From: Apium graveolens
Taxonomy: Eukaryota; Streptophyta; Magnoliopsida; Apiales; Apiaceae
Direction of reading: 5' to 3'
Length of the DNA: 64,000 nt
Assembly (NCBI RefSeq): GCF_009905375.1
Contig: NC_133650.1
Span: 175,283,565 to 175,347,564 of the forward strand
The position numbers were made by a program, and so were the translations under genes. Positions 8,219 to 41,446 of this stretch are shown here, one piece after another (the stretch's first letter is position 1; each line of letters starts with the position of its first letter). The notes below the pieces were generated by a model, which did no database searches, was not told where the DNA came from, and saw nothing but the letters and a program-made list of their open reading frames with translations.

Positions 8219-8716
8219 AATTCATAAAAATGTCACAGAGCACATAGTCATGCACACAAACCAGTAAACACACATATACGAACACATAACAACTCAGGTC
8301 TGATCAGAGAATTTGTCCTTCTTTAATCTTTATCCTTTTCTATGTGTACCGGGTCTCGCTCAGCCTGACGGCCCGACGCTCAGCGTTTCGATTACGCTTC
8401 TCATTATCATTATCGACTGACACGTCACTGAGGACGAAATACTTTATTTACACATTCATTTCATTCAATCACACATAATTCATATTTTATATTCTTAAAC
8501 TCCTTATTAGGACGGGTTCCGTTCTACCTAACGGCCCGACAATACAGCTTAACTCCTAAGCTGACTCTTTAAATTGGAACGCTTTTATTTACGCTCCTAT
8601 ATTCTAATATACAGAAAAGACAATTAATCAACACTTAATCGTATAATTATAATCACATCACATAAAGCATACTTTATTGACTTAATTACGTCACAAAATT
8701 CTCAGTCATCACAATC
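8219..8716. other. non-coding flank right of element 1
   Basis: Continuation of the DNA interrupted by element 1. It contains two related blocks, near 8350-8395 and 8513-8560, each with ACGGCCCGAC after a GGGT-C-G context. They look like decayed internal repeats of an old LTR, probably minus strand. No gene is seen. The junction with Sirevirus D near 8717 has no LTR, so D is truncated here. Confidence 0.4.
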
Positions 8717-10485: not shown

Positions 10486-10550
10486 TGTTAGGAATATGTG
10501 TATTAGTTTGATGATAAGTTACTTAAGTAGAAATCTAGTGTTTGTAGCCT

Positions 10551-10959
10551 CAACGGATAAGACCATCTTGGCTATCCGTTGAAGGAGTAGCTTTACTTAG
10601 CAATAAGTTTAGTATTGTAGCATATTTCATTCTCTGGTTTCAAGTTGTAATTCTTAGATGTTGTAGGAAATTATGAGTCATGTTGACTACTAATGGATAT
10701 ACAAATAGGAGGGCTAATTATAAATATTTCATGCCTTGTAATTTTGTATAAGTGAAGAAGTATCAACGGATATTGAAGACCTTCAACGGATAAGAAACAA
10801 AGCTTCAACGGATGTCTCTAATGCTTCAACGGATAATATCCATCAATGGATAAGTGCTTCAACAGATAAAGACTTCAACTGATAATGCATCAACGGATAA
10901 AGCTTCAACGGATAAAGCCTCAATGGATAAGGCATCAACGGATGAAAGCTTCAACGGAT
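10551..10959 (+). repeat. phased CAACGGAT motif array, 5' LTR
   Basis: Exact CAACGGAT starts at 10551, 10764, 10784, 10806, 10827, 10891, 10906, 10936 and 10952, with the reverse complement at 10574. Degenerate copies at 10844, 10860, 10876 and 10921 keep the spacing. From 10844 on the step is 15-17 bases; before that it is about 17-22. The array lies 250-450 bases upstream of the TATA box, i.e. in U3. The core AACGG resembles plant MYB sites, including the mitosis-specific MSA element, so a MYB3R-type activator is one possible reader. Confidence 0.9.
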
Positions 10960-11215
10960 GCTTGGTTCATTAGCAGTTGATAGTGACAATTCACAAGCTG
11001 ACAGAGGCACATGGGTTGACAGAGACAAACTGGAATGTGGAAGCCTCTAGGAGGAATTAAGAAAATGCAGCATTCCCATTCTGATGCAAATAAGGAAGTA
11101 TTCAAAGATTCACAGATTATCCTAGATTGCATTGGATAGAGAAATGAAGAAGAAACATGTGAAGAATCCTTTCAATTGTATTTTACAGTTTTGTCTTCAC
11201 TTGTAAACTTGGTGA

Positions 11216-11223
11216 TATATAAA
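11216..11223 (+). promoter_or_regulatory. TATA box of Sirevirus B LTR
   Basis: TATATAAA in the 3' third of the LTR, preceded by GGTGA. The position fits the U3/R boundary. The same box is in the 3' LTR. Confidence 0.7.
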
Positions 11224-11581
11224 CCAAGTAGCAGCTAGTAATTAGAAGAGAATTTTCCTGAGCTGTTTAGAAATATCAAGAGAGAAAATCATCTAGTTTG
11301 TACTAGGAAGCAGCTGTGATTTAATTCTTTGAATCACAGATTTTCTGAAATAACACATCTCTGGTGGAACAACAAATCCACCAGAAAAGTTTTTAAGTTC
11401 TTTGTGTTCTTTACATTTGTGTTTGAATATATATCTGTCTGTATCCGCTTCAAGCAATTCACACACATTTGTTCACTTAAACACTTAGCCTTAGAAACTG
11501 CTTAAAACTTGAAAAAGTTTTGAGATTTACATTCAACCCCCCTTCTGTAAATCTCATTGTTAGTCCACTGGGAATAACAAT

Positions 11582-11593
11582 TGGTATCAGAGC
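11582..11593 (+). promoter_or_regulatory. primer binding site of Sirevirus B
   Basis: TGGTATCAGAGC, two bases after the LTR end; initiator-Met tRNA type. Confidence 0.92.
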
Positions 11594-11639
11594 GAGCTCT
11601 TAACATACAAAGAGTTTAAAGATCTATTCTGCTAACATC

Positions 11640-14029
11640 ATGAGTAAGAAGGATATTGGTGTAAAGATTCCAATCCTGGAAAGAGATAACTATCATCACT
11701 GGAAGGTGAAGATGCATTTACATCTTCTCTCTCAAGATGAAAGCTACATCAACTGCATTGAGAATGGTCCTCACATCCCACACAAGGTGGCCACAGCTGC
11801 TACTACTACAGTTGCTTTTGGACAGTCTATTCCCAAGCCAAAGGCAGAATGGACTGTTGAAGATATTGAAGAGGTCCACAAGGACAAGAAAGCCATGAAC
11901 ATTTTATTTAATGGACTGGATCAAGATATGTTTGACAATGTCATCAACAGTCAAACTGCTAAGGAAATTTGGGATACTGTGCAGCTTATCTGTGAAGGCA
12001 CTGAGCAAGTTAGAGAAAACAAAATGCAGCTTCTCATTCAACAATATGAATATTTTCATTTTGAAGAAGGAGAATAATTGAATGATACATTCAACAGATT
12101 TCAGAAACTATTGAATGGATTAAAGCTGTATGGGAGAGTGTACCAAGTCAAGGACTCCAATTTAAAATTTCTAAGGTCTCTACCAAAGGAATGGAAGCAT
12201 ATGACTGTTTCTCTAAGAAATTCTGAAGATTATAAGGACTTCACACTTGAAAGATTATATGGAATTTTGAAGACTTATGAACTTGAGATGGAGCAAGATG
12301 AGCTGTTGGAAAAGGGAAAGAGAAAAGGAGGATCAGTTGTACTTGTAGCTGACAGTGAAAAAGTTGAATCCAGAAATGAGGAAAAGACAATGCCAAGTCT
12401 CAAAATTGGCACAAGCAAATCAGAATCAAACAAGAGTAAAGAGCAAGTTGCTGAGGATGAAGACAATTCCAGTCAGGATGAATCTGATGATATTGATGAA
12501 CATCTGGCCTTTCTGTCCAGGAGGTTTGCAAAGATGAAGTTCAGGAAAAACACAAAGTTCACTAAGCCAAACATAAACATGGTGGACAAATCAAAGTTCA
12601 AATGTTACAACTGTGGCATTAGTGGACACTTTGCAAGTGAGTGTAGAAGCCAAATTCTGAGAAAAAGAAATTTGAGCAAGTTGATTACAAAAAGAAGTAT
12701 TTTGATTTGCTCAAACAAAAGGAAAGAGCTTTTCTCACTCAAGATGATTGGGCAGCAGATGGGGTAAATGAAGATGATGATGTGAAATATGTCAACCTAG
12801 CCCTGATGGCTAATTCTGATGAAAATGAAACTAGTTCATCAAGCAACCAGGTAATTACTACGGATCTCTCTCAGCTTTCTAAACATGAATGCAATGAAGC
12901 CATAAATGATATGTCCAATGAATTATATCATTTGCTTGTTTCTCTTAAATCACTAGCTAAAGAAAACACTAGGATCAAAGAAAATAATGTGTTTTTAAGT
13001 GATAGGAATGCTGTGTTAGAGAGTCAGGTAATTGAGCTTGAAAAGATTAAACTTAAATGCTTGACTGTTGAGAGTGAACTAGAAGAAGCTGTTAAGAAAG
13101 TATAAATTCTTTTTAAACAGTTAGAAAGTGAGCAAGAGGTAATCAAGACCTGGAAAACATCTAGGGATATTGGTGTTCAAATTGCCAAGGTTCAGGGAAT
13201 TGAATCATTCTGTGAGGATGCCTGGAAGAAAAACAAAAAGAAGTTAGAATTAATTGATGGATTGTCAACGGATGTGGAATCAACGGATGATGAAAGTTAT
13301 CCGTTGAAGGAAGAAAAAGAGCATCTGTTGAAGGCTCATCAATTAAAACAGGCAAGTAATAAAAATCTTAATAAGAAGAATGATTTAACTCTCAAGAACT
13401 TTGTCAAAGAAGGAGCCAGCACATCCAAAGATGTCAGTAAGGTGAATATAGGACACATGACTTTAGATCAGCTGAAAAATAGGCTTAAGTTGGTTGAGGA
13501 TAAGAAGGAAACTAAAAGAAAATCTAAAAGAAATGGGAAAGTAGGGATTAATAAATATAACAATTACACACCTGATAGGTATGCTCCTAGAAAAAGCTAT
13601 GTGCATTGTAAAAGTATTAATCACCTATCTGATAATTGCAAATCTGTTAAAAATGCTCCCATGCCTTCAAATCCCTCCATGCCTAACATGTCTATGTCAC
13701 CTCTGCATGCTATGCCTGTTATGTCTCATCAGAATCCTCATGCACATCTTGCAAACATGCCATATATTAATAATCCCTATTTTACTGCATTTAGTATGCC
13801 TCACATGCCATACAATATGCCTATGTGGAATAACATGTTTGCACAATCTATGCTTTATCGATCAAATGTGCTAAATGATTCTGTGACTAACCCTATACTT
13901 CAACCAACCACATCTGAGATCAAGGTTGACCCAAAGTTACCTAAATTAAAAGATGCAGGAGGAATGAAGTCTAGGAAAAAGACTAACAAGGCTGGACCCA
14001 AGGAAACTTGGGTACCAAAATCAACTTGA
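11640..14029 (+). pseudogene. gag: Gag of Sirevirus B, broken
   Basis: Starts at ATG 11640 (MSKKDIGVKIPILERDNYHHW), a UBN2-type Gag. In-frame TAA at 12075 splits it. The zinc knuckle CYNCGISGHFASEC follows near 12602. A one-base deletion near 12648 (within AGAAGCC) shifts the frame, and reading resumes as LKQKERAFLTQDDW. Another in-frame TAA is at 13103. The last part, from about 13262, contains three CAACGGAT/ATCCGTTG motifs translated as STD or YPL, a second cysteine cluster, and a Met/Pro/Asn-rich stretch near 13650-13850. It ends WVPKST. Organisation and end match Gag of element 1, but B's copy cannot make a full protein. Confidence 0.85.
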
Positions 14030-14048
14030 TTGATTTTGTTGTGTGTAG

Positions 14049-17000
14049 GGACAAAGAAGGAATCTATGGTACTTGGACAGTGGTTGTTCAAGACACAAGA
14101 TAGGAGATTTCACCCTGCTCACAGAGTTTAAGGAGAGAGCTGACCCTAGCATAACCTTTGGAGATGACAGCAAAGGATTCACTATGGGATATGGCTTGAT
14201 TTCAAAAGGAAATGTCATCATTGTTGAAGTTGCATTGGTTGATGGTCTCAAACACAACTTATTGAGCATCAGTCAACTTTGTGACAGAGGGAATACTGTC
14301 TCCTTCAATTCTGAAGCCTGTATTGTCACAAGTAAGAAGGACAATAAAGTGGTTCTAACTGGAGTTAGAAAAGGAAATGTGTACCTAGCTGACTTCAACT
14401 CTACAGATGCAGAATCCATTACTTGTCTTTTCAGCAAAGCAAGTGCAGTTGAAAGTTGGCTATGGCACAAGAAGCTATCTCATTTGAATTTCAAGACAAT
14501 GAATGATCTAGTCAAAAAGGACTTAGTTAGAGGAATGCCTCTAGTGGAATTCACAAGGGATGGACTGTGTGATGCTTGTCAGAAAGGAAAGCAAAAGAAA
14601 GTATCATTCAGTAAGAAGCTTGAATCTGCAATTGATGAACCATTACAACTGCTACACATGGATCTTTTTAGACCAATCAATGTATTGTCAGTTTCAAGGA
14701 AAAGATATTGCCTAGTGATTGTTGATGATTTCTCTAAGTTTTCGTGGGTCTATTTTCTTGGATCAAAGGATGAAGCTAGTGAAATCATTATCAATCATAT
14801 CAAGCAAGTCAACAATCATCCTGATTTCAAAGTAAAAAATATTAGGAGTGACAATGGAACTGAGTTCAAGAATTCAACCATGAAGTTATTCTGTGAAGAA
14901 AATGGGATCATGCATGAGTACTCAGCTCCAAGGACTCCATAACAAAATGGTGTGGTGGAAAGGAAAAACAGATCACTAATTGAAGCTGCAAGGACAATGC
15001 TTGAAGAGTCAAAACTCCCAACTTACTTTTGGGCTGAGGCTGTTAACTGTGCATGTTACACTCAGAATATTTCTCTAATCAATCAGGCAAAAGGCATGAC
15101 TCCCTATCAACTATTCAAGAGAAGAAAACCAATTTTAAACTTTCTGCATGTCTTTGGTTGCAAATGTTACATCTTAAGGAATCAATCTGATCACAAAGGG
15201 AAGTTTGATGCAAAGGCTGATGAAGGAATATTTGTTGGTTATTCTGCTGGAAAATCTTATAGGGTCTACAATCTTAGAACAAACATTGTCATGGAATCTG
15301 TGCATATTGTGTTTGATGATAAAAAAATTGATGGACTAACAGATGAGGGACATCATGAAGGGCTCAAATTTGATAACATTGAGATATATTGTGATGATAG
15401 TGAAGATGAGAATGATGAAGAAGGCATCTCAAGAAGAATTCAGAATCTGCCTTTGGATAATGCACAGAATGCTGCATCCGTTGAAAGTCATAATTCAGCT
15501 TCCGTTGAAAGGAGCAATGCAGCATCCGTTGAAAGACAAAGTGCATCATCCGTTGAAGTTCATAATGAAGCATCCGTTGATCACAGTCTATCAACGGATA
15601 ATCAATTCACTTCATCAGTTGATAGAGCTCCCAATTCCTTTCAAAGGATCAGCAACTCAGGGGGAGTTTCAACCAATCAACATTCTATTTCACATCATGA
15701 CAATACTGAGGCAACCTCATCTAGAGCTAATCTACCACCTCAAAGGAAATGGACCAAGAATCACCCTTTTGAACTGATCATTGGTGATGCTACATCTAAA
15801 GTGCAAACTAGAAGGGCTACTCAAGATGAATGTCTGTATAGTAGCTTTCTATCACAGGAGGAACCTAAGATAGTGGAAGAAGCTCTATTGGATCCAGATT
15901 GGATTTTAGCAATGCAAGAAGAGCTAAACCAATTTGAGAGAAACAAAGTATGGAAGCTGGTACCCAAGCCAAAGAACAAGAGTTCTATTGACACAAAATG
16001 GGTATTCAGAAATAAGATGGATGAAAATGGCATTGTCATAAAGAATAAAGCCAGATTGGTTGCTAAAGGCTACTCTCAACAAGAGGGAATATATTTTGAT
16101 GAAACATTTGCTCCAGTTGCCAGACTTGAAGCCATCAGAATCTTTCTAGCCTATGCAACTAATGCCAATTTCAAAGTCTATCAAATGGATGTCAAGAGTG
16201 CATTTCTAAATGGGGAATTAGAGGAAGAAGTTTATGTAAGCCAACCTCCAGGATTTGAAGATCCAAATTTTCCAGACTATGTGTATTATCTGTTGAAAGC
16301 ACTCTATGGACTAAAGCAAGCACCTAGAGCCTGGTATGAGACTTTGTCAAAATTCCTTCTAGATAATCACTTCACAAGAGGTACTGTTGACAAAACTCTC
16401 TTCTTTAGAAATGTTAATGGCTCTAAAATACTTGTTCAAATTTATGTAGATGATATTATATTTGGATCTACAGATGATAAGCTTTGTAAAAAGTTTGCTA
16501 AGTTAATGCAAAGTAAATATGAAATGAGCATGATGGGAGAGCTAACTTATTTTCTTGGTTTACAAGTTAAACAAGTTAGTGATGGAATTTTCATTAGTCA
16601 AACTAAATACATTTATGATCTTTTAAAGAAGTTTGACTTAATGGATTGTTCATCTGCAAAAACTCCCATGGCCACTGCCACCAAGCTTGAATTAAACAAG
16701 GCTGAAAAGTCTGTGGATATTTCAAGTTATAGAGGCATGGTTGGCTCACTTTTATATTTAACTGCTAGTAGACCTGATATAATGTTTTCTACATGTCTCT
16801 GTGCTAGATTTCAAGCTGACCCTAAAGAATCTCACTTAGTGGCTATTAAAAGAATTTTCAGATATCTCAAAGGGACTCCAAATCTAGGAATTTGGTACCC
16901 TAGAGAGTCTGGTTTTGATCTAATTAGCTACTCAGATGCAGATTATGCAGGCTGCAAAATAGACAGGAAAAGCACAACTGGTACCTGTCAATTTCTAGGG

Positions 17001-17387
17001 AACAAGCTTGTGTCATGGTTCAGCAAGAAGCAGAATTTTGTTTCCACATCAACAGCTAAAGCTGAGTACATTGCTGCTGGTAGTTGCTGTGCACAGATAT
17101 TATGGATGAGGAATCAACTATTTGACTATGGTCTGATTGTTGACAAAATTCCAATATTCTGTGACAACACAAGTGCCATTGCCATTACTGAAAATCCAGT
17201 GCAACACTCAAGAACCAAGCATATTGATATCAAGTACCACTTCATTAGGGAACATGTGATGAAAGGTACAGTGGAACTTCATTTTGTTCCAAGTGAAAAG
17301 CAGATTGCAGACATATTTACCAAGCCACTTGATGAATCAACATTCACAAGATTAGTAAGTGAGTTAGGTATGCTTAATTATTCATAA
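14049..17387 (+). pseudogene. pol: Pol of Sirevirus B (protease-integrase-RT-RNase H), one stop
   Basis: Opens in a frame shifted from gag with the protease motif WYLDSGCSRH (14067). The integrase follows: zinc-binding region with HKKLSHLN and CDACQKGK, catalytic Asp in MDLF, Asp in IRSDNGTEF, then an in-frame TAA at 14940 just before the catalytic Glu in [10 protein letters not shown]. After the integrase comes a disordered linker repeating SVE/SVD, encoded by ATCCGTTGA motifs. The RT has [18 protein letters not shown] and the active-site YVDDIIFGS near 16444. RNase H has SDADYAG, TAKAEY, CDNTSA and the HIDIKYHF end. Apart from the TAA (likely CAA to TAA) the frame is open, so decay is limited. 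Confidence 0.92.
15476..15599 (+). repeat. 24-base-phased ATCCGTTG cluster inside pol
   Basis: ATCCGTTG starts at 15476, 15524, 15548 and 15572, with a one-mismatch copy at 15500, giving an exact 24-base step. CAACGGAT follows at 15592. The units encode a repeating SVE/SVD peptide between integrase and RT. This is the same 8-mer as the LTR array, in mostly opposite orientation. Confidence 0.9.
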
Positions 17388-17931
17388 TTTATGTCATCTA
17401 TATAATCTGCCTTGAATCCTGAAATGAATTTGCTGCAAGAACAAAGTTGGCTTTAAGTAAGACTTATCCTATCAACGGATATTCCCTATCCGTTGAAAGC
17501 CAAAATTGTTCTATCAACGGATGTTCATTATCCGTTGAAAGACAAATACATTTCTGGTAATTTTATCCTTCAACGGATAAAATGGTGTTGATCATCAACG
17601 GATAACTATTTACCTTATCAGTTGAAGTGTCACATCAGTTACTATAAGTGAGTCACAGCCGTTGATTCTTTTACTCAACCGTTGATACAAATATACAGTG
17701 TTGTATGTCTTTGTATTTAAGGTAGTTTTCAGAATTTCTACAGTTTTATTTATTCTTGAACGGCTGTAACTTACTTAAAAGTATCATTTAATCATTTTAT
17801 TTATGTTTTAATTCAAGAAAGTATAAAAGCCCAATTGAACTCTTATTTTCACTTTACGCTTTCTTGCAATTCTTATTCTCCTTCTCTCCCAAAAATTCTC
17901 AAGTTTTTCTCTGCAACCTCTACTCACAACA
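17388..17931 (+). other. pol-accessory ORF spacer of Sirevirus B with motif hairpins
   Basis: Non-coding spacer between the pol stop and the accessory ATG. CAACGGAT/ATCCGTTG pairs at 17473/17488 and 17515/17530 form two perfect inverted repeats with 7 bases between the 8-mers. Single copies lie at 17571 and 17596, and degenerate copies follow. The spacer ends with a pyrimidine-rich tract before ATG 17932, consistent with a leader or splice acceptor for a separate accessory mRNA. Confidence 0.75.
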
Positions 17932-19395
17932 ATGGCACCAGTAGTCAAAATTATGTCTCAAATAGGATTTGTTTATGAAAAGAATAATTTCATAGCCTTG
18001 GTTAAAAAGAATGAAGCCCATTCTGATTATCACAAGATGATGGACTTCATCAAAAACTGCGAACTACTGTGAGGTGATTGAGGAGATTTGGACAACTGTA
18101 GAGTTCAACTCCACAGATATGACTATTGCCTTCTCTCTCAAAGGTAAGGACTATTGCATTAACTGTGATGATATACAATCTTGCTTTAAGTTGCCTGAGA
18201 ATAATGCCATGACACCACACACTGATAAAGATGTATCTGCTATGTTAGATTCCATAGGCTATGCTTTTGATTCTACTAGTTTAGGTAGTATTAGAAGGAA
18301 AGGCCTTAGGAAAGAATGGAGTTTTCTTGGAGATGCCTTCATTAAAGTTTTCTCTGGGAAGATTAGCAATTTTGATGCCATAACTTCATCTCTTGTTAAT
18401 ATGCTCTATATGCTAGTTTCTGATAGGTACTTTAATTTTAGCAACTGTGTTATGCTAGAATTAGGATCCAGATTAGGTAATAAAGCTAATAGACCACATA
18501 ACATCTACTATGCTAGATTCTTTATGTTATTGGCTAACCATGTTGCTGAAGGTTTGGTTATATCAAATGAGAATAATAAACTCAAATGTTGGGCACAAGA
18601 GAAAAGGGTCCTTGCAGACCTTTTGAGAATGAACCTCAACAGCCAGGTGCCATTGGTATACTTGCCAATCATGAATGCACCACAGGTAAGTGAGGTAAAC
18701 ACTTTTATAACTCCTACTATTTCCAACCCCATTGTTTCTTTGCCCTCTAGTGTGGCCATAGAATCTGTGTCTTTGTCCAAACAGGTTCCTGCCAAAGCCA
18801 CCAAAACCAAAGTTTCAAAACTCAAGTCAAAGAAACCTACCTCTGTTGTTTCTCAAAAGACAACAGTTGTAACAACTACCATAAACCCTTAAGGGAGTGA
18901 ATAGGGTGTGAGTGGTGAGAGGAGGGGTGAACATCAAGAAACGCTCCAGGATAAGGTGGGAGAGGTGAGTGGTACCCAAGCCAGCCAAGCCACAGTCTCT
19001 CAAAAGACTGTGGTGATTCAAAAGGAGTCCAACACATCCCTAGTTGCATCCTCCCAAAAGGATGTAACTATTGAAAATAGTCCCCAACCAGGGACACAGA
19101 ACAAAAGAGGGAGGGACACTGAAGCCACACATTCACAAATTAAAGCCTTTTCAAGGAAGAAGAAGGCCAAGACCCTAGTTTCCACACAAGGGACACACAC
19201 AACACAGATACATCCACCTGTATCTGAGCCTTCCCAAATTCAGCTTGATGTGATTCCAGCAAATGTTGAATCACAGCCCCATTCTCTCATAATAGAAACA
19301 CACCAATCATCAAACTCTCCATCACCCTCTTTGGATATGGATATGATATTCACATCAATTCCTGATTCTCCCTCATTAAAACTCAGGGAGGAGCC
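17932..19395 (+). pseudogene. accessory ORF of Sirevirus B, N-terminal part
   Basis: ATG 17932 (MAPVVKIMSQIGFVYEKNNF) begins the ORF. A TGA at about 18070 marks a frameshift, and the protein resumes at 18074 (IEEIWTTVEFNSTD). The globular domain contains LRKEWSFLGDAF, SNFDAI and NIYYARFFML, matching Sirevirus D. In-frame TAA and TAG near 18890-18902 follow. The frame then runs on through a Ser/Thr/Lys-rich region with a RKKKAKT cluster until Athila A interrupts it after LKLREEP. It continues in frame at 37139. With the downstream parts the ancestral product approaches 1,490 codons, far longer than most copia accessory proteins. Function unknown. Confidence 0.75.
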
Positions 19396-19638
19396 TGATA
19401 AGTGGCATTTTATACCACTTAGAACGTCTTAAAATGGCTTAAATTGGTGTCTTGAAATCAAGTATTTTGTGTATTTGATGCGTTTTTTTAGTGTTCATGT
19501 ATTTCAGGGTATTAGTTGCATTTCGGGGGAGGAATCATCAAGAATAAGCCTTGGTATGTGTTCACCATTGCGAGAGGAAAGGAACGGGCAGATTACGGCG
19601 AAGAAACGGAGCAAACTTGGATTTTTTCCAGTAGAGGC

Positions 19639-19716
19639 CTGCGCGCCCGCGCAGCTATGCTGAGCGGCCGCGCAGCAACCTGCGCGCCCGCGCAGCAATG
19701 CTGAGCGGCCGCGCAG
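19639..19716 (+). repeat. tandem GC-rich palindromic unit in Athila LTR
   Basis: Two copies of a unit containing CTGCGCGCCCGCGCAG (a perfect 7-base inverted repeat around CC), a 5-base spacer, and the near-palindrome CTGAGCGGCCGCGCAG. The step is 41 bases. The 3' LTR has a single copy at about 35950-35986. It stands out sharply from the AT-rich surroundings and lies about 85-160 bases upstream of the TATA box. Confidence 0.9.
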
Positions 19717-19800
19717 GGTCGGGAATTTTGCTGAATTATTTTAGACTTCTACTTCTGTTTGGCTCCCAACTTCTATGTAATCTGAGTTTCATGGGACTAT

Positions 19801-19808
19801 TATATAAG
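19801..19808 (+). promoter_or_regulatory. TATA box of Athila LTR
   Basis: TATATAAG, also present in the 3' LTR near 36071. Confidence 0.65.
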
Positions 19809-20873
19809 TAGATTTGAGACGTTTTCACAGGGGGGTTTTAATAAGAAGAAGAAGATTGTGTTTTGTGCAAGAAGGGAAGATTGGGATACCAAGGAGAAGA
19901 CCTAGAAGCATAGAACAACTCCGGAAAAGAAGATCTTGTTTTCAACTTGTGATTCTTTGAATTAGTTGTAACTTTGGATGCACGTTTTCATTCTTGTTGA
20001 ACCTAGATCTCGTTTATTCGTACTTTGATTATTATTTAGTTTATTAAGACTTTGTTTATACCATACTTTCATTGGAACCCATGGTGACGATGAGTTCGAT
20101 TATGGGCTAATCGTTGTCACGGGGTTCTAGCGGATGTACTTATGGATTTCAATAATTAATTGTTTCGATATCTTGGTGTGTGGTGATTGATTGATATCCT
20201 AGTATTGGTTGTGCTTATTCATCTTATGTGCGTAGCTAACATATAAGATAGTGTGTTAATCTCTATTGAAGCGACAGTGAATATAGAGGTTTAGAACTTG
20301 CCATGCTAGCATAGGTTCATGTACGTGTATGCATGATTCGTAGGTAACTCTAACCGTTTTACTTGCCCTATGTAATCAAGATAGATAACTTGTGCTTAAA
20401 CTGTTATGTTGTCAAATTCTATAGACATATAGGGTCTCAATATAATTGGTGCCTATTCAGCTTCTATCTCTTTTGTGGATGTCTGGTAGAATGGTACTCG
20501 TGCAACAAAAGTTGGTGTTTATCAGTTTCGTGTTATCTGATTACTGTCATCACCATCACATGCTAAGGTTAAGAACAATAAGGCTATTGAATGAAGTATT
20601 TAATGAAGTTAGGATCCCATGTTTATCATATATATTAATTCAACCTCAATTCTCTTAGTTAATGTTATTTAGTATAATCTCTTAGTTTAATAAAAACCCA
20701 ATTTGTTATTTGTCTTAGCATTGAGCGATAACCATACATTGTTGCATAGGTGCATAAATTGAACTTAACCTAAACCAGTCTCTGTGGGAACGAATCTGAT
20801 TTATATCTTATACTACTTGCGAACGCGTATACTTGCGTGAATATTAGCGCGTGTTTTCGCCCTAACAAGTTTT

Positions 20874-20891
20874 TGGCGCCGCTGCCGGGGA
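20874..20891 (+). promoter_or_regulatory. primer binding site of Athila A
   Basis: TGGCGCCGCTGCCGGGGA, six bases downstream of the LTR end. It corresponds to the Asp-tRNA-like primer site typical of Athila elements, with one difference from the form I remember. Confidence 0.8.
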
Positions 20892-21003
20892 CTCGGTGTT
20901 AATTTTTAGTTTATGTGCTTGTCATCAGTGGTCGTTAAAGTTCATTGACTCGGATTCTTTTACTTTCACGGTTTATTTGTTTGTGTTTCAGGTACTCATT
21001 ACA

Positions 21004-23284: not shown

Positions 23285-23854
23285 TGATAGGGATAAATAA
23301 ATTATGATTGTATAATTAAATACTGCATTAATTGTACAAACTGTGGGCTGCTAGGCCCAATAAAAAGATATATGATACTCAGACCAGAAAGGTTAAGCCT
23401 GATGGACCAGATCCGGCCTGATGGAATAAAAAAGGCCCAAAAGCCCTGATTATTAATTAAATTCGTAATTAATTAATAAGGGACAAATCAGATGTTGAAA
23501 AGAGTCCCGATAAGGATATAAATCCTTGGAGATTAGCCTCAAGGGGACCTAAAAGGATAAGGAATCAGTTTCCTACTACCTAGGACTCCAAAGTCCATTC
23601 TAATTATGAGACTTGCCCACCAAGTCTCCTATACCAAGTCCAATTCAAGGACTCCCAACATCTATATAAGGGGTCTCACCCCCACCAATCAGAACTACGT
23701 TTTTTGGCTTGATTCTCTAATTCACAGAGATACGTAGGCATCTCGTAAAGGCAGATTGAGTCACGAAACACGAGAGCAGCCATTAAAGGCCTTGAGCTCC
23801 CGAATCTTAGTATTAAATACAGTAAGTAATAACCTTAGTTTTTTATCCACAACA
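23285..23854 (+). repeat. 5' LTR of Tat element C
   Basis: 570 bases. TATA-like CTATATAAG near 23662. Essentially identical to 33632-34201. Confidence 0.96.
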
Positions 23855-23856
23855 TT

Positions 23857-23874
23857 TAGCGCCGTCTGTGGGAA
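23857..23874 (+). promoter_or_regulatory. primer binding site of Tat element C
   Basis: TAGCGCCGTCTGTGGGAA, two bases after the LTR end. It differs by one base (A for G at position 3) from the TGGCGCCGTCTGTGGGAA form common in Tat elements. Confidence 0.75.
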
Positions 23875-23888
23875 TCACAACAACAACC

Positions 23889-29591: not shown

Positions 29592-29926
29592 GATAGGCTA
29601 AGTACGATTCTCACTTGTCATTATGACAAATAGGTTTAAAAGCACCTGGAAGCTTTGCTTGCGTAGAATTTAATATTCCAGTAGAATTTACAATGTCTAG
29701 TTATTATTGATTAGGGTCGAACCCATGCTGTGTAAGGTTTTGAAAAACCAGACTTCATATTAAAGAGCTTGAAATTATTTCAATCCAAGGATGTTTAAGG
29801 TTCAAATGCATATTAAGATTGTAAAGTTAAAACAGAAAAAGGCAAGAAAAGCAACGTATAAAACATAACCCCGAAGGGTAACAAGTTCTGATATAAATAA
29901 AGTTCAAAAAGAAGATATACAAAAAG
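29592..29926. other. spacer between convergent Tat genes
   Basis: 335 bases between the gag-pol stop and the stop of the antisense gene. No ORF is recognised. Both transcripts would run toward each other here, so overlapping RNA is expected. Confidence 0.6.
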
Positions 29927-31959: not shown

Positions 31960-32086
31960 TAAAGAAGCACTCCTGAAAAAGGCTTTGAGCTCCGACTTGC
32001 TGTTATTGCTCTGAGAATCTTAGCAGGAGGATAAAAGAAGAAAACTAAGAAATGAGAAAGTGAGGAGTAATAGCCTTTCCTCATTC

Positions 32087-32095
32087 CTTTATATA
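32087..32095 (-). promoter_or_regulatory. TATA box of the antisense gene
   Basis: On the minus strand TATATAAAG, about 130 bases upstream of the leader-intron donor at 31958. Transcription would start near 32055. This gives the antisense gene its own promoter inside the retrotransposon. Confidence 0.65.
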
Positions 32096-32199
32096 GGAGG
32101 AAAAAGAAGTTGAAGGGACGAAAAGCCCATTAAGAACAAAGGCCCATAAGAAGAGGCCCAGAAAAAAGAATATTCCAGAATATACCTAGGAATTCTAGG

Positions 32200-32470
32200 G
32201 CATTCTAAACAGGGTGTGTTAAGCCCAGCAATATTTGATAAAGCCCAATGAGAAGGCCCAGCAATATTTGACAAAGCCCAATAAAGAGGCCCAACAATAT
32301 TTGATAAAGCCCAATAAAAGAGGCCCAATAAGATTTGAAAAGGCCCAATAAAAGAGGCCCAATGAGATTTGAAAAGCCCAATAATAGAAGCTAAGTAAAA
32401 TTTTATAGGGCCCAACAAAAAGGCCAGGCCCAAATCCAATTAGGATTTGGAAAATATAATACCCTAAATT
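32200..32470. repeat. imperfect GGCCCAATA-type repeats upstream of the antisense promoter
   Basis: Blocks of AAGCCCAATA or AGGCCCAATA with (A/G)ATATTTGA or GATTTGAAA recur roughly every 30-45 bases. They sit just upstream of the antisense TATA box. GGCCCA words are known plant promoter elements, so this could be the antisense promoter's upstream region. This is inference. Confidence 0.6.
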
Positions 32471-32497
32471 AAAGCTAAATAAAGAAAGCTAGTGAAA

Positions 32498-32743
32498 GAC
32501 CAGGAACCAGGTCGAAATCCAGGTCGTGAATCCTGCCCAAAATCTTTCGAGCAGATACCCGAAAATCACGGGTAAAAAAGACCAGAATCCAGGTCGAAAT
32601 CCAGGTCGTGAATCCTGCCCGAAATCTTTCGAGCAGACACCCGAAAATAACGGGTAAAAAAGACCAGAATCCAGGTCGAATTCCAGGTCGTGAATCCTGC
32701 CCGAAATCTTTCGAGCAGACACCCGAAAATAGCTGGAATAACG
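32498..32743. repeat. 82-base tandem repeat, three units
   Basis: Units start with GACCAG at 32498, 32580 and 32662, so the period is exactly 82 bases. Each contains AGGTCG...AATCCTGCCC...TTTCGAGCAGA...CCCGAAAAT. Three overlapping reading frames show the same repetition, so ORFs here are repeat artefacts. Confidence 0.92.
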
Positions 32744-33215
32744 GGACTGAATTGAGGTCGAAGCTTCGACCAAGAATGAGGTCGAATAAACCAAGCAACT
32801 TTCAAAAAATGGGGATTAAAAACTCAGGTCGAAGTTCGACTAGGATCCTGGTCGAATTCCAGGTCGTGGATCCTAGTCGAAAACCTTCGACCAGGAAACA
32901 AGAAAATCAAGGAATTTTCGAACAGGATTCAGGTCGAAATATCGACTAGAATCCTAGTCGAAATCCTAGTCAATAGGCTCATGACAAAAAAAAAAGGGGT
33001 GGAATTTTCGACCTCGATCCAGGTCGAATTTTCGACTAGGATCCTGGTCGAATTCCAGGTCCTAGATCCAGGTCGAAAATTCGACTAGGATCCTGGTCGA
33101 ATTCCAGGTCGTGGATCCTAGTCGAATTCCTTCGACCAGGATGACAAGGCTGGCCCCTATTTTCGACTAGGATCCAGGTCGAAAATTCGACTAGGATCCT
33201 GGTCGAAAAAAGGGC
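32744..33215. repeat. degenerate AGGTCGAA / TCCTGGTCGAA satellite-like region
   Basis: Short words AGGTCGAA, TTCGACTAGGATCC, TGGTCGAATTCCAGGTCG and their reverse complements alternate for about 470 bases, giving many nested inverted repeats. It grades out of the 82-base array. Hypervariable tandem-repeat 3' regions are a known feature of Tat elements and a proposed source of satellite DNA. Confidence 0.85.
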
Positions 33216-33224
33216 TGGAAATTT

Positions 33225-33500
33225 GAAGAATCCAGAAAATAGGGAAAATTCCAGAAAATAAGGAAAAATCCCAGAAAATTAGGGAAAATTCCAGAAAATA
33301 AGGAAAAATCCCAGAAAATTAGGGAAAATCCCAGAAAATTAGGGAAAAATCTCAGAAAATTAGGAAAAATCCCAGAAAATTTGGGAAAAATTCCAGAAAA
33401 TTAGGGAAAAATCCCAGAAAATTAGGGAAAAATCCAGAAAATAAGGGAAAAATCCCGGAAATAAGGGAAAAATTCCTGGAAATTAAGATAATTCCTGAAT
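33225..33500. repeat. about 20-base AT-rich tandem repeat
   Basis: Roughly a dozen units of CCAGAAAATTAGGGAAAAAT-like sequence, period about 19-21 bases with small indels. A second, independent tandem array next to the GTCGAA region. Confidence 0.88.
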
Positions 33501-33613
33501 AAAAGGAAAAATTCATTGTAAATGTGTAGGTCGCTCCACACTTTACAAAAAAAATGAAACCTTGTAAGGGAACAAATAGACTTAACTTCTGCGAAACCTA
33601 ATCAATGTTTCCC

Positions 33614-33631
33614 AAAAGTTGGGGGGGCAAA
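33614..33631 (+). promoter_or_regulatory. polypurine tract of Tat element C
   Basis: AAAAGTTGGGGGGGCAAA directly before the 3' LTR at 33632. Confidence 0.85.
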
Positions 33632-34201
33632 TGATAGGGATAAATAAATTATGATTGTATAATTAAATACTGCATTAATTGTACAAACTGTGGGCTGCTA
33701 GGCCCAATAAAAAGATATATGATACTCAGACCAGAAAGGTTAAGCCTGATGGACCAGATCCGGCCTGATGGAATAAAAAAGGCCCAAAAGCCCTGATTAT
33801 TAATTAAATTCGTAATTAATTAATAAGGGACAAATCAGATGTTGAAAAGAGTCCCGATAAGGATATAAATCCTTGGAGATTAGCCTCAAGGGGACCTAAA
33901 AGGATAAGGAATCAGTTTCCTACTACCTAGGACTCCAAAGTCCATTCTAATTATGAGACTTGCCCACCAAGTCTCCTATACCAAGTCCAATTCAAGGACT
34001 CCCAACATCTATATAAGGGGTCTCACCCCCACCAATCAGAACTACGTTTTTTGGCTTGATTCTCTAATTCACAGAGATACGTAGGCATCTCGTAAAGGCA
34101 GATTGAGTCACGAAACACGAGAGCAGCCATTAAAGGCCTTGAGCTCCCGAATCTTAGTATTAAATACAGCAAGTAATAACCTTAGTTTTTTATCCACAAC
34201 A
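33632..34201 (+). repeat. 3' LTR of Tat element C
   Basis: 570 bases, followed by TSD ACTGC. Only one substitution from the 5' LTR was found by eye. Confidence 0.96.
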
Positions 34202-34529
34202 ACTGCCAAATCACTTGAGTTATTCATTCTTAGGTGCACCCCCTGACAAGGGGTTGGGATATATCTTTGATGATGTAAAGGGTAGCCGAACGGATCCTCC
34301 AGTGCCTATAGAGGGTTCTTCTCATGTGCAGCAGATAATTGATAGGACTGGTGTTGGTGATGAGCAGTACAGGCGAGTAACTATGCGTATGGAGGCCATG
34401 CACGATATTCACCGTCATTTTGCTGCAGATTTGACACATGCTTTCGGTACTGTTGTTCGAGACACTGGTGGCGAGGTTGATTGGCCACCTGATCCTCCAC
34501 CCGACGAGGGTGAATCTCCCGCTAATTAG
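34202..34529 (+). pseudogene. Athila A: pol start fused to a C-terminal ORF remnant
   Basis: Across the C insertion the Athila frame continues with LPNHLSYSFLG, the conserved lead-in to RT. It then passes abruptly into APPDKGLGYIFDD and a short, acidic, Pro-rich tail ending GESPAN. The catalytic RT, RNase H and integrase are missing. The tail is not pol; by position it is most likely the end of the Athila env-like ORF. The fusion looks like an internal deletion that happened before C inserted. Confidence 0.7.
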
Positions 34530-35092
34530 GTATGCCTGAAATCCTTATTACTGCCTTCAATGAGGATATTGAAAATTTTAAGTATGGGGGTGGTAGTTAA
34601 GGAATATTGTGTGTGTGTCATTTAGTTGCATATTCATGATAGTTTAGTTCATATAGTTGCATAATTTATGCCATATAGTTTTTTTTTATGAATGTCATGT
34701 AGCTCATGCATTTACCATGATCCCTTTTGCAATGATTTATCGACTGAATTGTGATATTGACGTGAGTGTAGTGATAACATTAAAGTGATATTAAGTTGTG
34801 TAGGTTGATATGCATGCTAGAAACAATTGTAAGTCCACTAAGTCTTAGAGAATGCGAAAGGGCTAGATTGTGTTATGATTTGGTTGTTTTCAAGGTCAAT
34901 CTATTTATTATGCTTAGAATTCGATTATAGGTTCTTAGTGATAAAGACATGAAAAAGAAAAATTTTGGAGAAAAAAATATGGAAGTTGTTGCTAGTTGTG
35001 GCTAGGCGTCAAATGGCTAGTAGTCGGCTCGCGTATGTTGCGAGTAGTCTAGGGTTGAGCAAGATGGAGCGAAACGCACTTGCTCAGAGTTT

Positions 35093-35150
35093 AAAAAAAA
35101 AATAAAAAAAAATAAAAAAAAAATAAAAAAAAATAAAAAAAAAATAAAAA
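35093..35150 (+). repeat. (A8-10 T)n low-complexity run
   Basis: Five to six A-tracts of about 8-10 bases separated by single T, internal to the Athila element. It is not followed by a TSD, so it is not a retroposon tail. Confidence 0.9.
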
Positions 35151-35693
35151 TTGGCATAATTGATCAAGAGTGGGCTCTTTGGTATTCGAGTTATTAAGTT
35201 CTTAGGGGACTTTGTGCCTAGCGACCTAAGGCTTTTAGAGTCTGGGATCCGCTAACCTAACGCTCGTTACATGGATATCATTGTATAAGTCTTTTGTGGA
35301 TCTCACTCATTGCACGGTCAAATAAGCATTTGAGTGTAAATAAAAAGTACGATTCCGTAGTATGCTCCAGAGTTCTTGTAGTGTTGTATATCACTTTGTG
35401 CCTGGAATTTTTATTCTTTGTATAATCGTAGGATTGCCTTGAGGATAGTCTAGTCATAGTAATTGGTCTAGTTTCGAAGCATATTTGTTAAGCATTTGCA
35501 CACACCACGTTTCTGATTGTATGTCCGTTTGCATGAGTTTATTGATCTTTAGTTGTCTAACTGCATTCGTTGAGATGTGGCATTTTGGTTGATTAATTGT
35601 AGTAAGGGGGATCGCTGCATTTTCATATAGATTGTATTCATTCATATTTTTATTTGTTTTTGAGTCTGTGACGCTTGAGGGCAAGCATCGATT

Positions 35694-35707
35694 TAAGTTT
35701 GGGGGTG
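35694..35707 (+). promoter_or_regulatory. polypurine tract of Athila A
   Basis: AAGTTTGGGGGTG-type tract directly before the 3' LTR. Confidence 0.8.
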
Positions 35708-37138
35708 TGATAAGTGGCATTTTATACCACTTAGAACGTCTTAAAATGGCTTAAATTGGTGTCTTGAAATCAAGTATTTTGTGTATTTGATGCGTTTTTC
35801 TAGTGTTCATGTATTTCAGGGTATTAGTTGCATTTCGGGGGAGGAATCATCAAGAATAAGCCTTGGTATGTGTTCACCATTGCGAGAGGAAAGGAACGGG
35901 CAGATTACGGCGAAGAAACGGAGCAAACTTGGATTTTTTCCAGTAGAGGCCTGCGCGCCCGCGCAGCTATGCTGAGCGGCCGCGCAGGGTCGGGAATTTT
36001 GCTGAATTATTTTAGACTTCTACTTCTGTTTGGCTCCCAACTTCTATGTAATCTGAGTTTCATGGGACTATTATATAAGTAGATTTGAGACGTTTTCATA
36101 GGGGGATTTTAAGAAGAAGAAGAAGATTGTGTTTTGCGCAAGAAGGGAAGATTGGGATACCAAGGAGAAGACCTAGAAGCATAGAACAACTCCGGAAAAG
36201 AAGATCTTGTTTTCAACTTGTGATTCTTTGAATTAGTTGTAACTTTGGATGCTCATTTTCGTTCTTGTTGAACCTAGATCTCGTTTATTCGTACTTTGAT
36301 TATTATTTAGTTTATTAAGACCTTGTTTATACCATGCTTTCATTGGAACCCATGGTGACGATGAGTTCGATTATGGGCTAATCGTTGTCATGGGGTTCTA
36401 GCGGATTTACTTATGGATTTCAATAATTAATTGTTTCGATATCTTGGTGTGTGGTGATTGATTGATATCCTAGTATTGGTTGTACTTATTCATCTTATGT
36501 GCGTAGCTAACATATAAGATAGCGTGTTAATCTCTATTGAAGCGACAGTGAATATAGAGGTTTAGAACTTGCCATGCTAGCATAGGTTCATGTACGTGTA
36601 TGCATGAATCGTAGGTAACTCTAACCGTTTTACTTGCCCTATGTAATCAAGATAGATAACTTGTGCTTAAACTGTTATGTTGTCAAATTCTATAGACATA
36701 TAGGGTCTCAATATAATTGGTGCCTATTCAGCTTCTATCTCTTTTGTGGATGTCTGGTAGAATGGTACTCGTGCAACGAAAGTTGGCGTTTATCAGTTTC
36801 GTGTTATGTGATTAGTGTCATCACCATCACATGCTAAGGTTAAGAACAATAAGGCTATTGAATGAAGTATTTAATGAAGTTAGGATCCCATGTTTATCAT
36901 ATATATTAATTCAACCTCAATTCTCTTAGTTAATGTTATTTAGTATAATCTCTTAGTTTAATAAAAACCCAATTTGTTATTTGTCTTAGCATTGAGCGAT
37001 AACCATACATTGTTGCATAGGTGCATAAATTGAACTTAACCTAAACCAGTCTCTGTGGGAACGAATCTGATTTATATCTTATACTACTTGCGAACGCGTA
37101 TACTTGCGTGAATATTAGCGCGTGTTTTCGCCCTAACA
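35708..37138 (+). repeat. 3' LTR of Athila A
   Basis: 1431 bases, one GC-rich unit only; otherwise about 20 substitutions from the 5' LTR. TSD GAGCC follows. Confidence 0.95.
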
Positions 37139-37666
37139 GAGCCCCACTCAAAACCTGATGATCATCATCTTTTAGATGATTTATTGGATCATCAGCCAAT
37201 TCTTTCAGATGTAGTTGAAGAATCTGTGTTACCTCACTTAAAATCAATTCCCACAGATTCAACAATTATGTCACTTTCTATATCTACATCTTTTCCTTCT
37301 TCAACGGATATCTCTCATCCGTTGACAAGTAGTTGTTCTTCAACGGATAAGCTTAATAGCAGTTATCCGTTGATACCATCAGTTTCCACTTCAACGGATA
37401 CTCCCTATCCGTTGATGGTCTCTACACACATAACAGAAACAATACCAACTGTAGAGGACATGGCTACTGTACAATCACTTTTAGGTTTGAGGGAAGGGAG
37501 TGATCTTTTGAGTGAGAGGCTGGGTTGCTCCCAGGCAAAAGGAGAGGTTGAGAGTCACCATATGCATGCTATTTCTTCCAGCATGGCAAAAGTGAGTGAG
37601 GGGAGTGCCACCTTAGAAGGTGAGGGTGTGTGTGAGCCAAGGGGAGCCCCTGATGCAAGAAAATAG
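37139..37666 (+). pseudogene. accessory ORF of Sirevirus B, middle part
   Basis: Resumes in frame after Athila A (REEP joined to HSKPDDHH). It is Ser/Thr-rich. The motif pairs at 37302/37317, 37341/37365 and 37392/37407 are translated as repeating STD and HPL/YPL. The frame ends at TAG 37664. The next recognisable segment (37803) is in another frame, so an indel lies between them. Confidence 0.72.
37302..37414 (+). repeat. inverted CAACGGAT/ATCCGTTG pairs inside the accessory ORF
   Basis: Three head-to-head pairs: 37302/37317 and 37392/37407 with 7 bases between the 8-mers (same geometry as 17473/17488 and 17515/17530), and 37341/37365 with a longer spacer. Arms extend to 9-10 bases. They could act as DNA palindromes or RNA stem-loops. 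Confidence 0.9.
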
Positions 37667-37802
37667 AGAAAAAGAGAGAAAGGCAGGTACAGAAGCTATA
37701 AGGGTGGATCCAGCCATTGCTAGTGAGTCAATGAAAGTGGATGATGCAGAAAAGGAAAGACAATTTTAGCAACATTTCAAAGCTGCAATTGATAACATTT
37801 CC

Positions 37803-40154
37803 TTGGATGCTGACACTTTTACTCATCCTGTTTCAGCCTATCAATTATTGGCTGCTCAGGGCAATGTGGAGGCAGAACATACATTACACATTGTACACAC
37901 TTCAGAATCTCTTCTCAGAGACAAAGCTGCTATTAACAGGCTGCCTTCTCAAGCTGGTGAGCCATCTGAAGAATTTGGAGTGAATTCTAATGATGATGAC
38001 TCTAATTCTTTGGATGAGAGCATGAACTTAGGGGGAGTAGCAGGCCCAAGTTCTGTTCCTGATCTTCCTGAATGGGCATGGGAAAAAGCCTCAACACCAA
38101 GAGAGTTTAGTGTCACTTTGATTAGACAAGTCATGACAATTCAGCAGGCCCTTCAGGAGACTACAGATGCTGGTACCAAGGCAATTCTTCAAGCTCATCT
38201 GGAATCTCTGCATCTCTTGCAGTTGCAGCATTTCCAACAAAATCTAAGTGTGGATGAGCTCAAACAGGACATTGCTAATCTGAAATCCTACAATGCTGAG
38301 AAGTTGGATTCAGTCATACCTTATGGTACTATGCAAGATTTGTTGGGGAGACTGAGGAAAGAATCTGATGCTGACAAGAGACTGGCCAGATTGGAAAATA
38401 GGGTTCAAATCATTGAAGATTCTATGGTCACAATTCTTCAGAATCAACAAACTTAAACAAATCTACTCATGCAGCTGGCCAAAGCACAAGGCTTGACTCC
38501 TACCCTTGATGATAACAAAAAGGGGGAGAATAAAGGGAAAGGGGAAGGAGAGCCATCAACAACAGTTCAAATTTCTTAAGTGCTAGTTCCTGTCATCACC
38601 ACTTCTCCAATTATTCAAATCAAAGGAAAGCTTGATGGAATTGATCTAATCCAGATAGCAGCAGCTGAATTGCAAGTCAAAGAGCAAAGGAAGAAGATTG
38701 ATGAAAAGATGCAACAAATATTTGGTTCTACAACTTCTCAATCACAATCTGTGAAGCACAGCACAAAAGTGGAATCAATTATTATGGAACTCAAGCCAGT
38801 AGGGAGGAATAAGGTTGGAGAGACTTCTTCCAAGGATTTGAAACCTATGGTCCTCAAGCCCAACAACAGATCCAATAAGGACTCTACAAAGAATCCTCTG
38901 AAAGAAGTGGATTTTCCTCTTCCAAAGGCTGATGAGGACAAGCTTTTGGGTAGAAGTATCTCACATCTCAAAGAGACCATGGATGTGGCTGTAAGGAGAA
39001 ATATGGCTATTATCTTCAGAGAGGGAAAGAGCATATGTGTGATGCAAGGACATCCCAAATTCTCAATAGCCAAGAGGGAAGAAACCAGAAGGTTGAAGGA
39101 AGAAGCCAAACAGCTAAAGGCTGACAAAAGAGCACAAGCAAAGCTTGAAAAACAGCTAAAGTCAAGTCAGGCTGAAAAACAGAAAGAAATTGAAGAAAAA
39201 AGTGAAGATGAAGCTATGGGGGACATGGTTGGTACTGAGATGGAGGAAAGAAGTAAGGGAAGAGAAGAATGGCAGAAAGGGAACAGAAAGAAGGTCAATG
39301 CAAAGAGAAAAATGGTAGATAAGACTGAAGAAACCCAATCAATATCCAAACCACTACCCTCTATTCCTGAACCCATTGTGCCTGACCCCTTCATGAACAT
39401 TCATGGTGAAACAATCATTCCCAAGGAGGAACCAATTGATTGGGACACCATCAAATTTCCCACCTTCCTAACCTCTTCTCCACCATCAAAGAAGCAGAAA
39501 AGAAGAATCAAATCAACACCCTCTAGAGCCTCAATCAAATTCACACAGAAGCCTAAGCCTAAACCTCAAGCCTCTAAAGATGATTATGTTCACATCTGTG
39601 ACATAGAAGAATTTTCAGACATTGAACTCTATCTGGATGAGCTGGAGGAAGTAAGGGGAATAGCTGCCTACAGACAGCTACCAGAAAGACTAGTGTTCAA
39701 ATACAAAGGAGATGGGGAAAGAACCTGGCCTCTTTACAGAATTTTGAATGAAGGCTACTCTACCTTGATTACAGTCTACTCAGCCATACAAAGGGATTTT
39801 GGCTTTACCAGGACTGCCAAGACTGAGATTCTCAACAAGATTGCCAACATAAGGAAAACTTGGAGGGAGCCTAATGCTTTGCCTAGAACTTTACTCATTC
39901 AAGAAAGAGGAATTACAATTCACAAATCACCTCATTGGTTGATGGAGTTCAGAGACAACAAAGGAGTCAGAAGATTTTTTAGAATTGAAGATCAACTCAA
40001 GATTGCCAGTAATGAAACTCTCAAGGATATGCAATCTAAGTTAGACATCAATGAAGAAGATGAAGCTGAATTCTACAGACAACTTCAACTTCAAATAGAG
40101 GAGAATGACAGGAGGCTAGGAAAGAAAACAAGGAATCAAAGGAAAAGAAACTAA
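37803..40154 (+). pseudogene. accessory ORF of Sirevirus B, C-terminal part
   Basis: One frame, with in-frame TAA at about 38454 and 38577. The first part is alpha-helical (VRTSESLLRD-like start, LPEWAWEKAS, a long coiled coil ending LQNQQT). Then comes KKGENKGKGEG, whose DNA is a polypurine tract. A Lys/Glu-rich coiled coil (about 39070-39330) and a C-terminal domain with ELYLDELEEVRGIAAYRQLPER and WPLYRILNEG follow, ending in a basic tail (KKTRNQRKRN). No catalytic motif is recognised. Sirevirus D has a parallel layout including the KKGE polypurine segment, so the whole very long ORF is a shared feature, not a local fusion. Confidence 0.72.
38517..38530 (+). promoter_or_regulatory. internal polypurine tract of Sirevirus B
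   Basis: AAAAAGGGGGAGAA inside the accessory ORF, matched by 41757-41770 in D. Similar tracts lie near 15658 and 38029. Repeated polypurine tracts are typical of Sireviruses. Confidence 0.7.
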
Positions 40155-40328
40155 TCTGCTCAGGCTAAAGGAGCACCCTTGGAAACAATGTAATTCTCCA
40201 ATACCATCTCAGAATATACATTTTTGTAGCACTTTTTGAATTTCTGCTTTATTACAGTTTATATATTTGTCAAGTGTTTTGTTATCATCAAGCTAAACCC
40301 AAATTTATGCCTACAGTTCTAGTAGACA

Positions 40329-40343
40329 TAAATAGGGGGAGAT
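40329..40343 (+). promoter_or_regulatory. polypurine tract of Sirevirus B
   Basis: TAAATAGGGGGAGAT directly before the 3' LTR. Confidence 0.88.
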
Positions 40344-41446
40344 TGTTAGGAATATGTGTATTAGTTTGATGATAAGTTAAACAAAACACTTAAGTAGAAA
40401 TCTAGTGTTTGTAGCCTCAACGGATAAGACCATCTTGGCTATCCGTTGAAGGAGTAGCTTTACTTAGCAATAAGTTTAGTATTGTAGCACATTTCAATCT
40501 CTGGTTTCAAGTTGTAATTCTTAGATGTTGTAGGAAATTATCAGTCATGTTGACTACTAATGGATATACAAATAGGAGGGCTAATTGTAAATATTTCATG
40601 CCTTGTAATTTTGTATAAGTGAAGAAGTATCAACGGATATTGAAGACCTTCAACGGATAAGAAACAAAGCTTCAACGGATGTCTCTAATGCTTCAACGGA
40701 TAATATCCATCAACGGATAAGTGCTTCAACGGATAAAGACTTCAACTAATAATGCATCAACGGATAAAGCTTCAACGGATAAAGCCTCAATGGATAAGGC
40801 ATCAACGGATGAAAGCTTCAACGGATGCTTGGTTCATTAGCAGTTGATAGTGACAATTCACAAGCTGACAGAGGCACATGGGTTGACAGAGACAAACTGG
40901 AATGTGGAAGCCTCTAGGAGGAATCAAGAAAATGCAGCATTCCCATTCTGATGCAAACAAGGAAGTATTCAAAGATTCACAGATTATCCTAGATTGCATT
41001 GGATAGAGAAATGAAGAAGAAACATGTGAAGAATCCTTTCAATTGTATTTTACAGTTTTGTCTTCACTTGTAAACTTGGTGATATATAAACCAAGTAGCA
41101 GCTAGTAATTAGAAGAGAATTTTCCTGAGCTGTTTAGAAATATCAAGAGAGAAAATCATCTAGTTTGTACTAGAAAGCAGCTGTGATTTAATTCTTTGAA
41201 TCACAGATTTTCTGAAATAACACATCTCTGGTGGAACAACAAATCCACCAGAAAAGTTTTTAAGTTCTTTGTGTTCTTTACATTTGTGTTTGAATATATA
41301 TCTGTCTGTATCAGCTTCAAGCAATTCACACACATTTGTTCACTTAAACACTTAGCCTTAGAAACTGCTCAAAACTTGAAAAAGTTTTGAGATTTACATT
41401 CAACCCCCCTTCTGTAAATCTCATTGTTAGTCCACTGGGAATAACA
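40344..41446 (+). repeat. 3' LTR of Sirevirus B
   Basis: 1103 bases, colinear with 10486-11579. Confidence 0.95.
40418..40826 (+). repeat. phased CAACGGAT motif array, 3' LTR
   Basis: Exact CAACGGAT at 40418, 40631, 40651, 40673, 40694, 40711, 40727, 40758, 40773, 40803 and 40819, with ATCCGTTG at 40441. Degenerate copies lie at 40743 and 40788. Two sites decayed in the 5' LTR are intact here. Confidence 0.9.

Follow-up and report, generated by a model that had tools for sequence, protein, structure and literature searches.

Why should a retrotransposon carry one eight-base word dozens of times, in its terminal repeats and in its coding DNA alike? The question is raised by a 64,000-nucleotide stretch of the Apium graveolens genome (NC_133650.1, positions 175,283,565 to 175,347,564, forward strand; hereafter the window), in which the word CAACGGAT, here called the box, has 42 exact copies, all of them within one long terminal repeat (LTR) retrotransposon, element B. 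The two LTRs of B (10486-11579 and 40344-41446, + strand) are 98.1% alike, and both are bounded by TGTTAGGAAT...GGGAATAACA, giving TGTT...AACA ends. Between them, gag (11604-12767), an rve domain within 14049-14942 and an RVT_2 domain within 14943-17387 follow one another in copia order, and a polypurine tract, AGGGGGAG, lies at 40334-40341 (+), its start exactly 10 bp before the 3' LTR, with extra copies at 38030 and 38521. The published Sirevirus rule places this octamer exactly 10 bp upstream of the 3' LTR, with more copies in the linker (Bousios et al. 2010, PMC2829016); on domain order and on this rule, B is classed as a Sirevirus (Ty1/copia). Two elements are nested in it: A (19396-37138), with a Retrotrans_gag-type gag, and C (23285-34201), with a Ty3-type frame encoding gag, reverse transcriptase (RT) and integrase.

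The original prediction, made from the letters of the window, had put the number of boxes at about 42 over both strands, and the count is exactly that, against a mean of 0.88 and a maximum of 4 in 100 dinucleotide shuffles of the window. The regional tallies are also as predicted, with 10 boxes in the 5' LTR, 12 in the 3' LTR and 20 internally (3 in gag, 5 in pol, 6 in the spacer between pol and the accessory gene and 6 in the accessory open reading frame, or ORF). Along the window this amounts to 14 internal copies before nested A and 6 after it, and to none in A and C, as had been claimed, or in either flank. The chance expectation needs revision: about 0.4 copies had been anticipated within B, and shuffles of its four pieces (5' LTR, internal before A, internal after A, 3' LTR) gave means of 0.005, 0.016, 0.007 and 0.003, summing to 0.03, for 10, 14, 6 and 12 boxes observed; the figure falls below 0.4 because B is CpG-poor. 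The one-mismatch neighbours, which the prediction had asked to be counted, number 20 in B, the commonest being CAACAGAT (5), CAACTGAT (4), CAATGGAT (3) and CAAAGGAT (3). From the 32 copies outside the 5' LTR we built the extended consensus YWTCAACGGATR: the preceding base is T and the following base a purine in all 32, with A or T at -2 in 29 and a pyrimidine at -3 in 30, and beyond a few bases the flanks carry information near 0. No word of comparable enrichment was found in the five other stretches of the window that were scanned, positions 1-707 and 8214-10485 lying outside the scan.

The boxes fall into six groups. The 5' LTR array (10551-10959) comprises nine exact boxes on the + strand and one on the - strand, in tandem units of 15 and 46 bp, and the 3' LTR array (40418-40826) eleven and one. 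Within the open frame 13106-14029, the gag cluster (13266-13306) has boxes at 13266 and 13281 (+) and at 13299 (-), translated STD, STD and YPL. The pol cluster (15476-15599) lies in the integrase-RT linker, between the SH3 and RVT_2 domains of the frame 14943-17387, and is chiefly in - orientation (15476, 15524, 15548 and 15572, with 15592 on the + strand); its period is 24 bp, and it holds a further one-mismatch box at 15500. Six exact boxes form the spacer array (17473-17603, +), which includes two inverted pairs with a 7-bp gap and is continued downstream by one-mismatch boxes as far as 17684. The accessory cluster (37302-37414, +), in the open frame 37112-37666 and some 1.6 kb into the accessory gene rather than at its start, is composed of three inverted pairs with gaps of 7, 16 and 7 bp. 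Set against the palindromic CGG-CCG unit of RM boxes, four pairs are inverted across a gap of 7 bp and others across wider ones, whereas the main LTR arrays are direct. A neutral account would have a functionless short repeat grow through slippage where the element is under little constraint; there are tandem units of 15, 20, 24 and 46 bp, and the gag and pol clusters both lie outside Pfam-defined domains. Simple slippage, however, does not yield inverted pairs, and the sites have the box and little else in common, as the uninformative flanks indicate. We regard this account as very improbable, the more so since CpG persists only in boxes and box residues outlast their neighbours in relatives, as described below.

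If the boxes are maintained, is it the DNA or the encoded peptide that is kept? With frames read by hand, all six + strand coding copies are translated TCA ACG GAT (STD), and the - strand copies give (Y/H)PL in gag (one) and in the accessory ORF (three) and SVE or SVD in pol (four); the third frame in that orientation, ATC CGT TGA, would give a stop. The claim that the word is read in different frames hence stands for the - copies and falls for the + copies. In the three coding pieces tested (13106-14029, 14943-17387 and 37139-37666; 3,897 bp), 6 of 74 Thr codons are ACG and 4 of 62 Pro codons are CCG, every one of them in a box, and there are two CpGs outside exact boxes. Synonymous-codon shuffles matched the observed number of boxes in none of 2,000 trials for any piece, the maxima being 2, 3 and 4 against 3, 5 and 6 observed. 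The CpG observed/expected ratio is 0.34, 0.09, 0.05 and 0.36 in the four pieces of B and 0.39, 0.59 and 0.55 in the left flank, A and C together and the right flank, and inside the clusters it reaches 0.73-1.12 at a GC content of only 0.35-0.42, clusters of RM boxes being described as CpG islands. Exact boxes hold 42 of the 54 CpGs of B, and four of the remaining 12 (12861, 15503, 17660 and 17680) lie within one-mismatch boxes. Given the codon and CpG tests, the synonymous shuffles and the three different peptides, it is well supported that what is conserved is a DNA word, in both orientations, in LTR, spacer, gag, pol and accessory gene. Two of the 12 substitutions between the LTRs fall in boxes, and each is a CpG transition on the 5' LTR side. 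The boxes of this copy decay as other CpGs do; it is in the active lineage that they are preserved. A recognition site, as the original prediction had it, is the natural reading, and we hold it quite probable that the boxes serve as sites of DNA recognition in one form or another. More tentatively, and a little short of an even chance, we propose that they are read by a sequence-specific DNA-binding protein which would keep the element transcribable, and, more weakly, that this reader may be the accessory protein, acting like VANC of the VANDAL transposons.

The original prediction had allowed for a motif kept as DNA or as RNA. Inverted pairs could form transcript hairpins serving small-RNA production, packaging or dimerisation, and the internal clusters do fold far better than shuffles (z of -8.05, -6.52, -4.31 and -6.85), as does, to a lesser degree, the short pair of inverted boxes in the LTR (z -2.85); in maize, the palindromes of Sirevirus LTRs are described as small-RNA hotspots (PMC5311732). 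A hairpin, however, requires pairing and not one fixed word, and the main direct arrays of the LTRs retain the same word yet do not fold (z -0.77 and -1.12), which makes RNA less likely as the shared cause. We judge RNA function improbable as a general explanation, although hairpins may matter at the inverted pairs.

The preferred reading, that of DNA recognition sites, leads one to look for the box in relatives of B, which were compared through their proteins, its presence being judged from the encoded peptides. Among the best 120 of 7,988 pol matches, the linker could be delimited in 57, the other 63 having none definable by rule. In these 57, SV[ED] occurs at 6.41 per 1,000 residues of linker against 0.46 in the remainder of the same proteins, and eight carry at least three SV[ED] or STD in the linker. 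Two other relatives carry at least four N[PT]D there, which might represent the box of another family. P0058, likewise from Apium graveolens, is the best pol relative among the matches listed, being 91% identical across 90% of the query part. At the accessory array, 14 of 17 matches (E up to 0.01) encode at least one STD plus at least one xPL, the STD of P0192 seemingly lying outside the array, and identity to B is 0.77 at box-coded positions (18 codons) against 0.45 at their neighbours (21 codons). Nine of the 12 replacements of the box Thr are by Met, a preponderance that would be expected if ACG decays to ATG, although four of the nine are predicted protein starts. In P0189, P0190 and P0193, Ser replaces Leu at all three reverse sites and the forward sites differ too, which, judged from protein, suggests that the box changed in concert. 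Two results weigh on the other side: none of 57 accessory N-terminal homologues shows the cluster, many of them seemingly ending before the array, and the sole pol relative with DNA (L011, NZ_VCHY01000046.1) carries no box. Judged by peptides, the expectation that relatives keep the internal copies holds for the pol linker and accessory array; the L011 DNA does not bear it out. The latter comes from a Labilibacter sediminis assembly contig, probably a contaminant, as the Sirevirus pol found on it is of plant type (59% identical in the best segment); in the linker of this pol, a short repeat of 18 bp contains GAGGGGGAG.

The position of the arrays suggests what a reader of the boxes might do. 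A putative TATA box, TATATAAA, lies at 11216-11223 (+), 257 bp after the end of the last box of the 5' LTR, and a candidate internal one, TATAAAAG, at 17822-17829 (+), 219 bp after the end of the last exact box of the spacer; downstream of it come a leader rich in pyrimidines and the accessory ATG at 17932. TATAAA occurs eight times in B and is not rare, so that the motif alone proves nothing. The succession of box array and TATA box fits the internal-promoter idea put forward by Bousios et al. (PMC2829016). On our proposal, the 42 copies would constitute one Sirevirus recognition box, YWTCAACGGATR, an expanded form of the known RM boxes. Those in the LTR would act on the main promoter and those in the spacer on an internal promoter driving the accessory gene, while the clusters within coding DNA would extend the effect over the ~13-kb body.

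The same arrangement would suit a host factor of the MYB class, such as MYB3R, driving cell-cycle- or stress-linked transcription from the LTR and an internal promoter, with the coding copies as internal enhancers or spill-over. MYB3R binds the core of the MSA site, AACGG, whichever way round it lies and in varying copy number (PMC8964727, PMC10905365), and this AACGG core is invariant in the exact boxes. Most described Sirevirus families share the CGG-CCG core (PMC2829016), as a common host factor would favour, and the arrays lie upstream of putative TATA boxes in LTR and spacer. The full MSA consensus, YCYAACGGYYA, is nevertheless not matched, since every box has an A after AACGG at a position that calls for a pyrimidine, and a MYB factor alone leaves the gag and pol boxes unexplained. 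Moreover, RM boxes differ by family outside the core, and the authors of 2010 found no single common factor for them (PMC2829016). A host MYB reader is, in our judgement, rather unlikely.

A reader encoded by B itself, which we consider slightly less likely still, would be its accessory ('envelope-like') protein, binding the boxes to oppose silencing. In this copy the accessory frame (17932-18069, +) is broken by a stop after 46 codons, continues in another frame and is split by nested A. For an N-terminal piece (18041-18892, +), used in homology and structure work, a predicted model and a tentative VANC21 lead were obtained, and the named ones among its 57 homologues come from Heracleum and Apium, except for one from a Klebsiella record; the C-terminal piece (38580-40154, +) is basic, with a predicted long helix. 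DUF1985 and DUF287, domains to be expected in a protein of the VANC system, are absent among the 14 Pfam families matched by any of 32 accessory members, the best match being PF20167 (7 members, best E 3.5e-05); P0012 scored 18.6 bits against a cut-off of 45.

Several further repeats surround these features. A AGGGGGAG octamer also lies in the pol linker (15659-15666), translated within S-G-G-V-S, and the consensus line of 16 pol relatives shows SGGAS. This octamer could represent a central polypurine tract, the sequence being rare outside the linker domain in the published survey, at 0.3 per element (PMC2829016). Next to the 5' LTR, 90 bp of sequence (10391-10480) recur with 95.6% identity at 41478-41567, 31 bp past the 3' LTR; the insertion of B seems to have separated two copies of a locally repeated sequence. 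One difference is found in the five bases adjoining its LTRs (ATTAT/GTTAT). Directly before the 3' LTR of nested C, tandem arrays with words of the CCAGGTCG/AGGTCGAA type (32223-33514) are unrelated to the box. Elsewhere, LTR-like direct repeat pairs occur at 708-2032 and 6888-8213 (98.7% identical) and at 55374-55606 and 60362-60597 (98.3%), and two direct copies of ~1.19 kb (47053-48246 and 48418-49610; 95.7% identical, ~170 bp apart) represent a tandem duplication or else the two LTRs bounding a non-autonomous element of very small size.

How, then, does B compare with known systems? RM boxes are a described feature of Sireviruses, with arrays in the pol/ENV spacer and, within the LTR, ahead of the TATA box; like the boxes of B, they are high-copy and specific to the family, with a CGG/CCG core (PMC2829016). 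The same account lists linker boxes in 9 of 9 RM elements with ENV and 0 of 4 without, and extra copies at the ENV start in two elements, Osr10 and HOPIE. With 10 and 12 boxes in its LTRs and 6 upstream of its accessory gene, B has arrays of this already known kind. What is new are the boxes in gag, in pol and deep in the accessory gene, places where RM boxes are not known to form clusters, the half-site arrays of the LTRs, mostly direct where RM boxes are described as palindromes, and the CpG starvation of B apart from its boxes, unlike that description (PMC2829016). MYB3R promoters share with B a repeated AACGG core in either orientation near the transcription start, yet those described have two and four copies, against 42 across a mobile element, coding DNA included (PMC8964727, PMC10905365).

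VANDAL, the transposon of the VANC system, is a Mutator-like DNA transposon whose motifs are mainly non-coding and in the same orientation, unlike those of B, and in which binding and methylation loss were shown experimentally, whereas B is known here from its sequence (PMC5735166, PMC10398659). A 2021 meeting saw the announcement of a crystal structure of VANC21, unpublished at that time (PMC8756742). As described for VANDAL, B has a short family-specific motif, partly in tandem, dense within copies and rare outside (42 in B and none elsewhere in the window), that varies between related families, and the transposon-encoded protein is of variable sequence (PMC5735166, PMC10398659). In sunflower SIRE elements, CG methylation is reported to fall dramatically between the LTRs while CHG remains high (PMC12844716), a pattern consistent with a body shielded from CG methylation, though it does not decide between the readings. 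By analogy, though we hold it unlikely as yet, the 'envelope-like' protein of Sireviruses might be no envelope at all but a self-specific, DNA-binding anti-silencing protein of the VANC type, with RM boxes as its sites, those within gag, pol and its own gene included, and both co-evolving by family. The roles of that gene and of RM boxes are called unproven in published accounts (PMC2829016, PMC3414828), and a single answer would then serve both puzzles. The codon and CpG tests, for their part, provide a simple route to finding, in other mobile elements, recognition sites of DNA that lie concealed within coding sequence. Were the accessory protein indeed the reader, self-specific anti-silencing would reach from VANDAL DNA transposons (PMC5735166, PMC10398659) to LTR retrotransposons.

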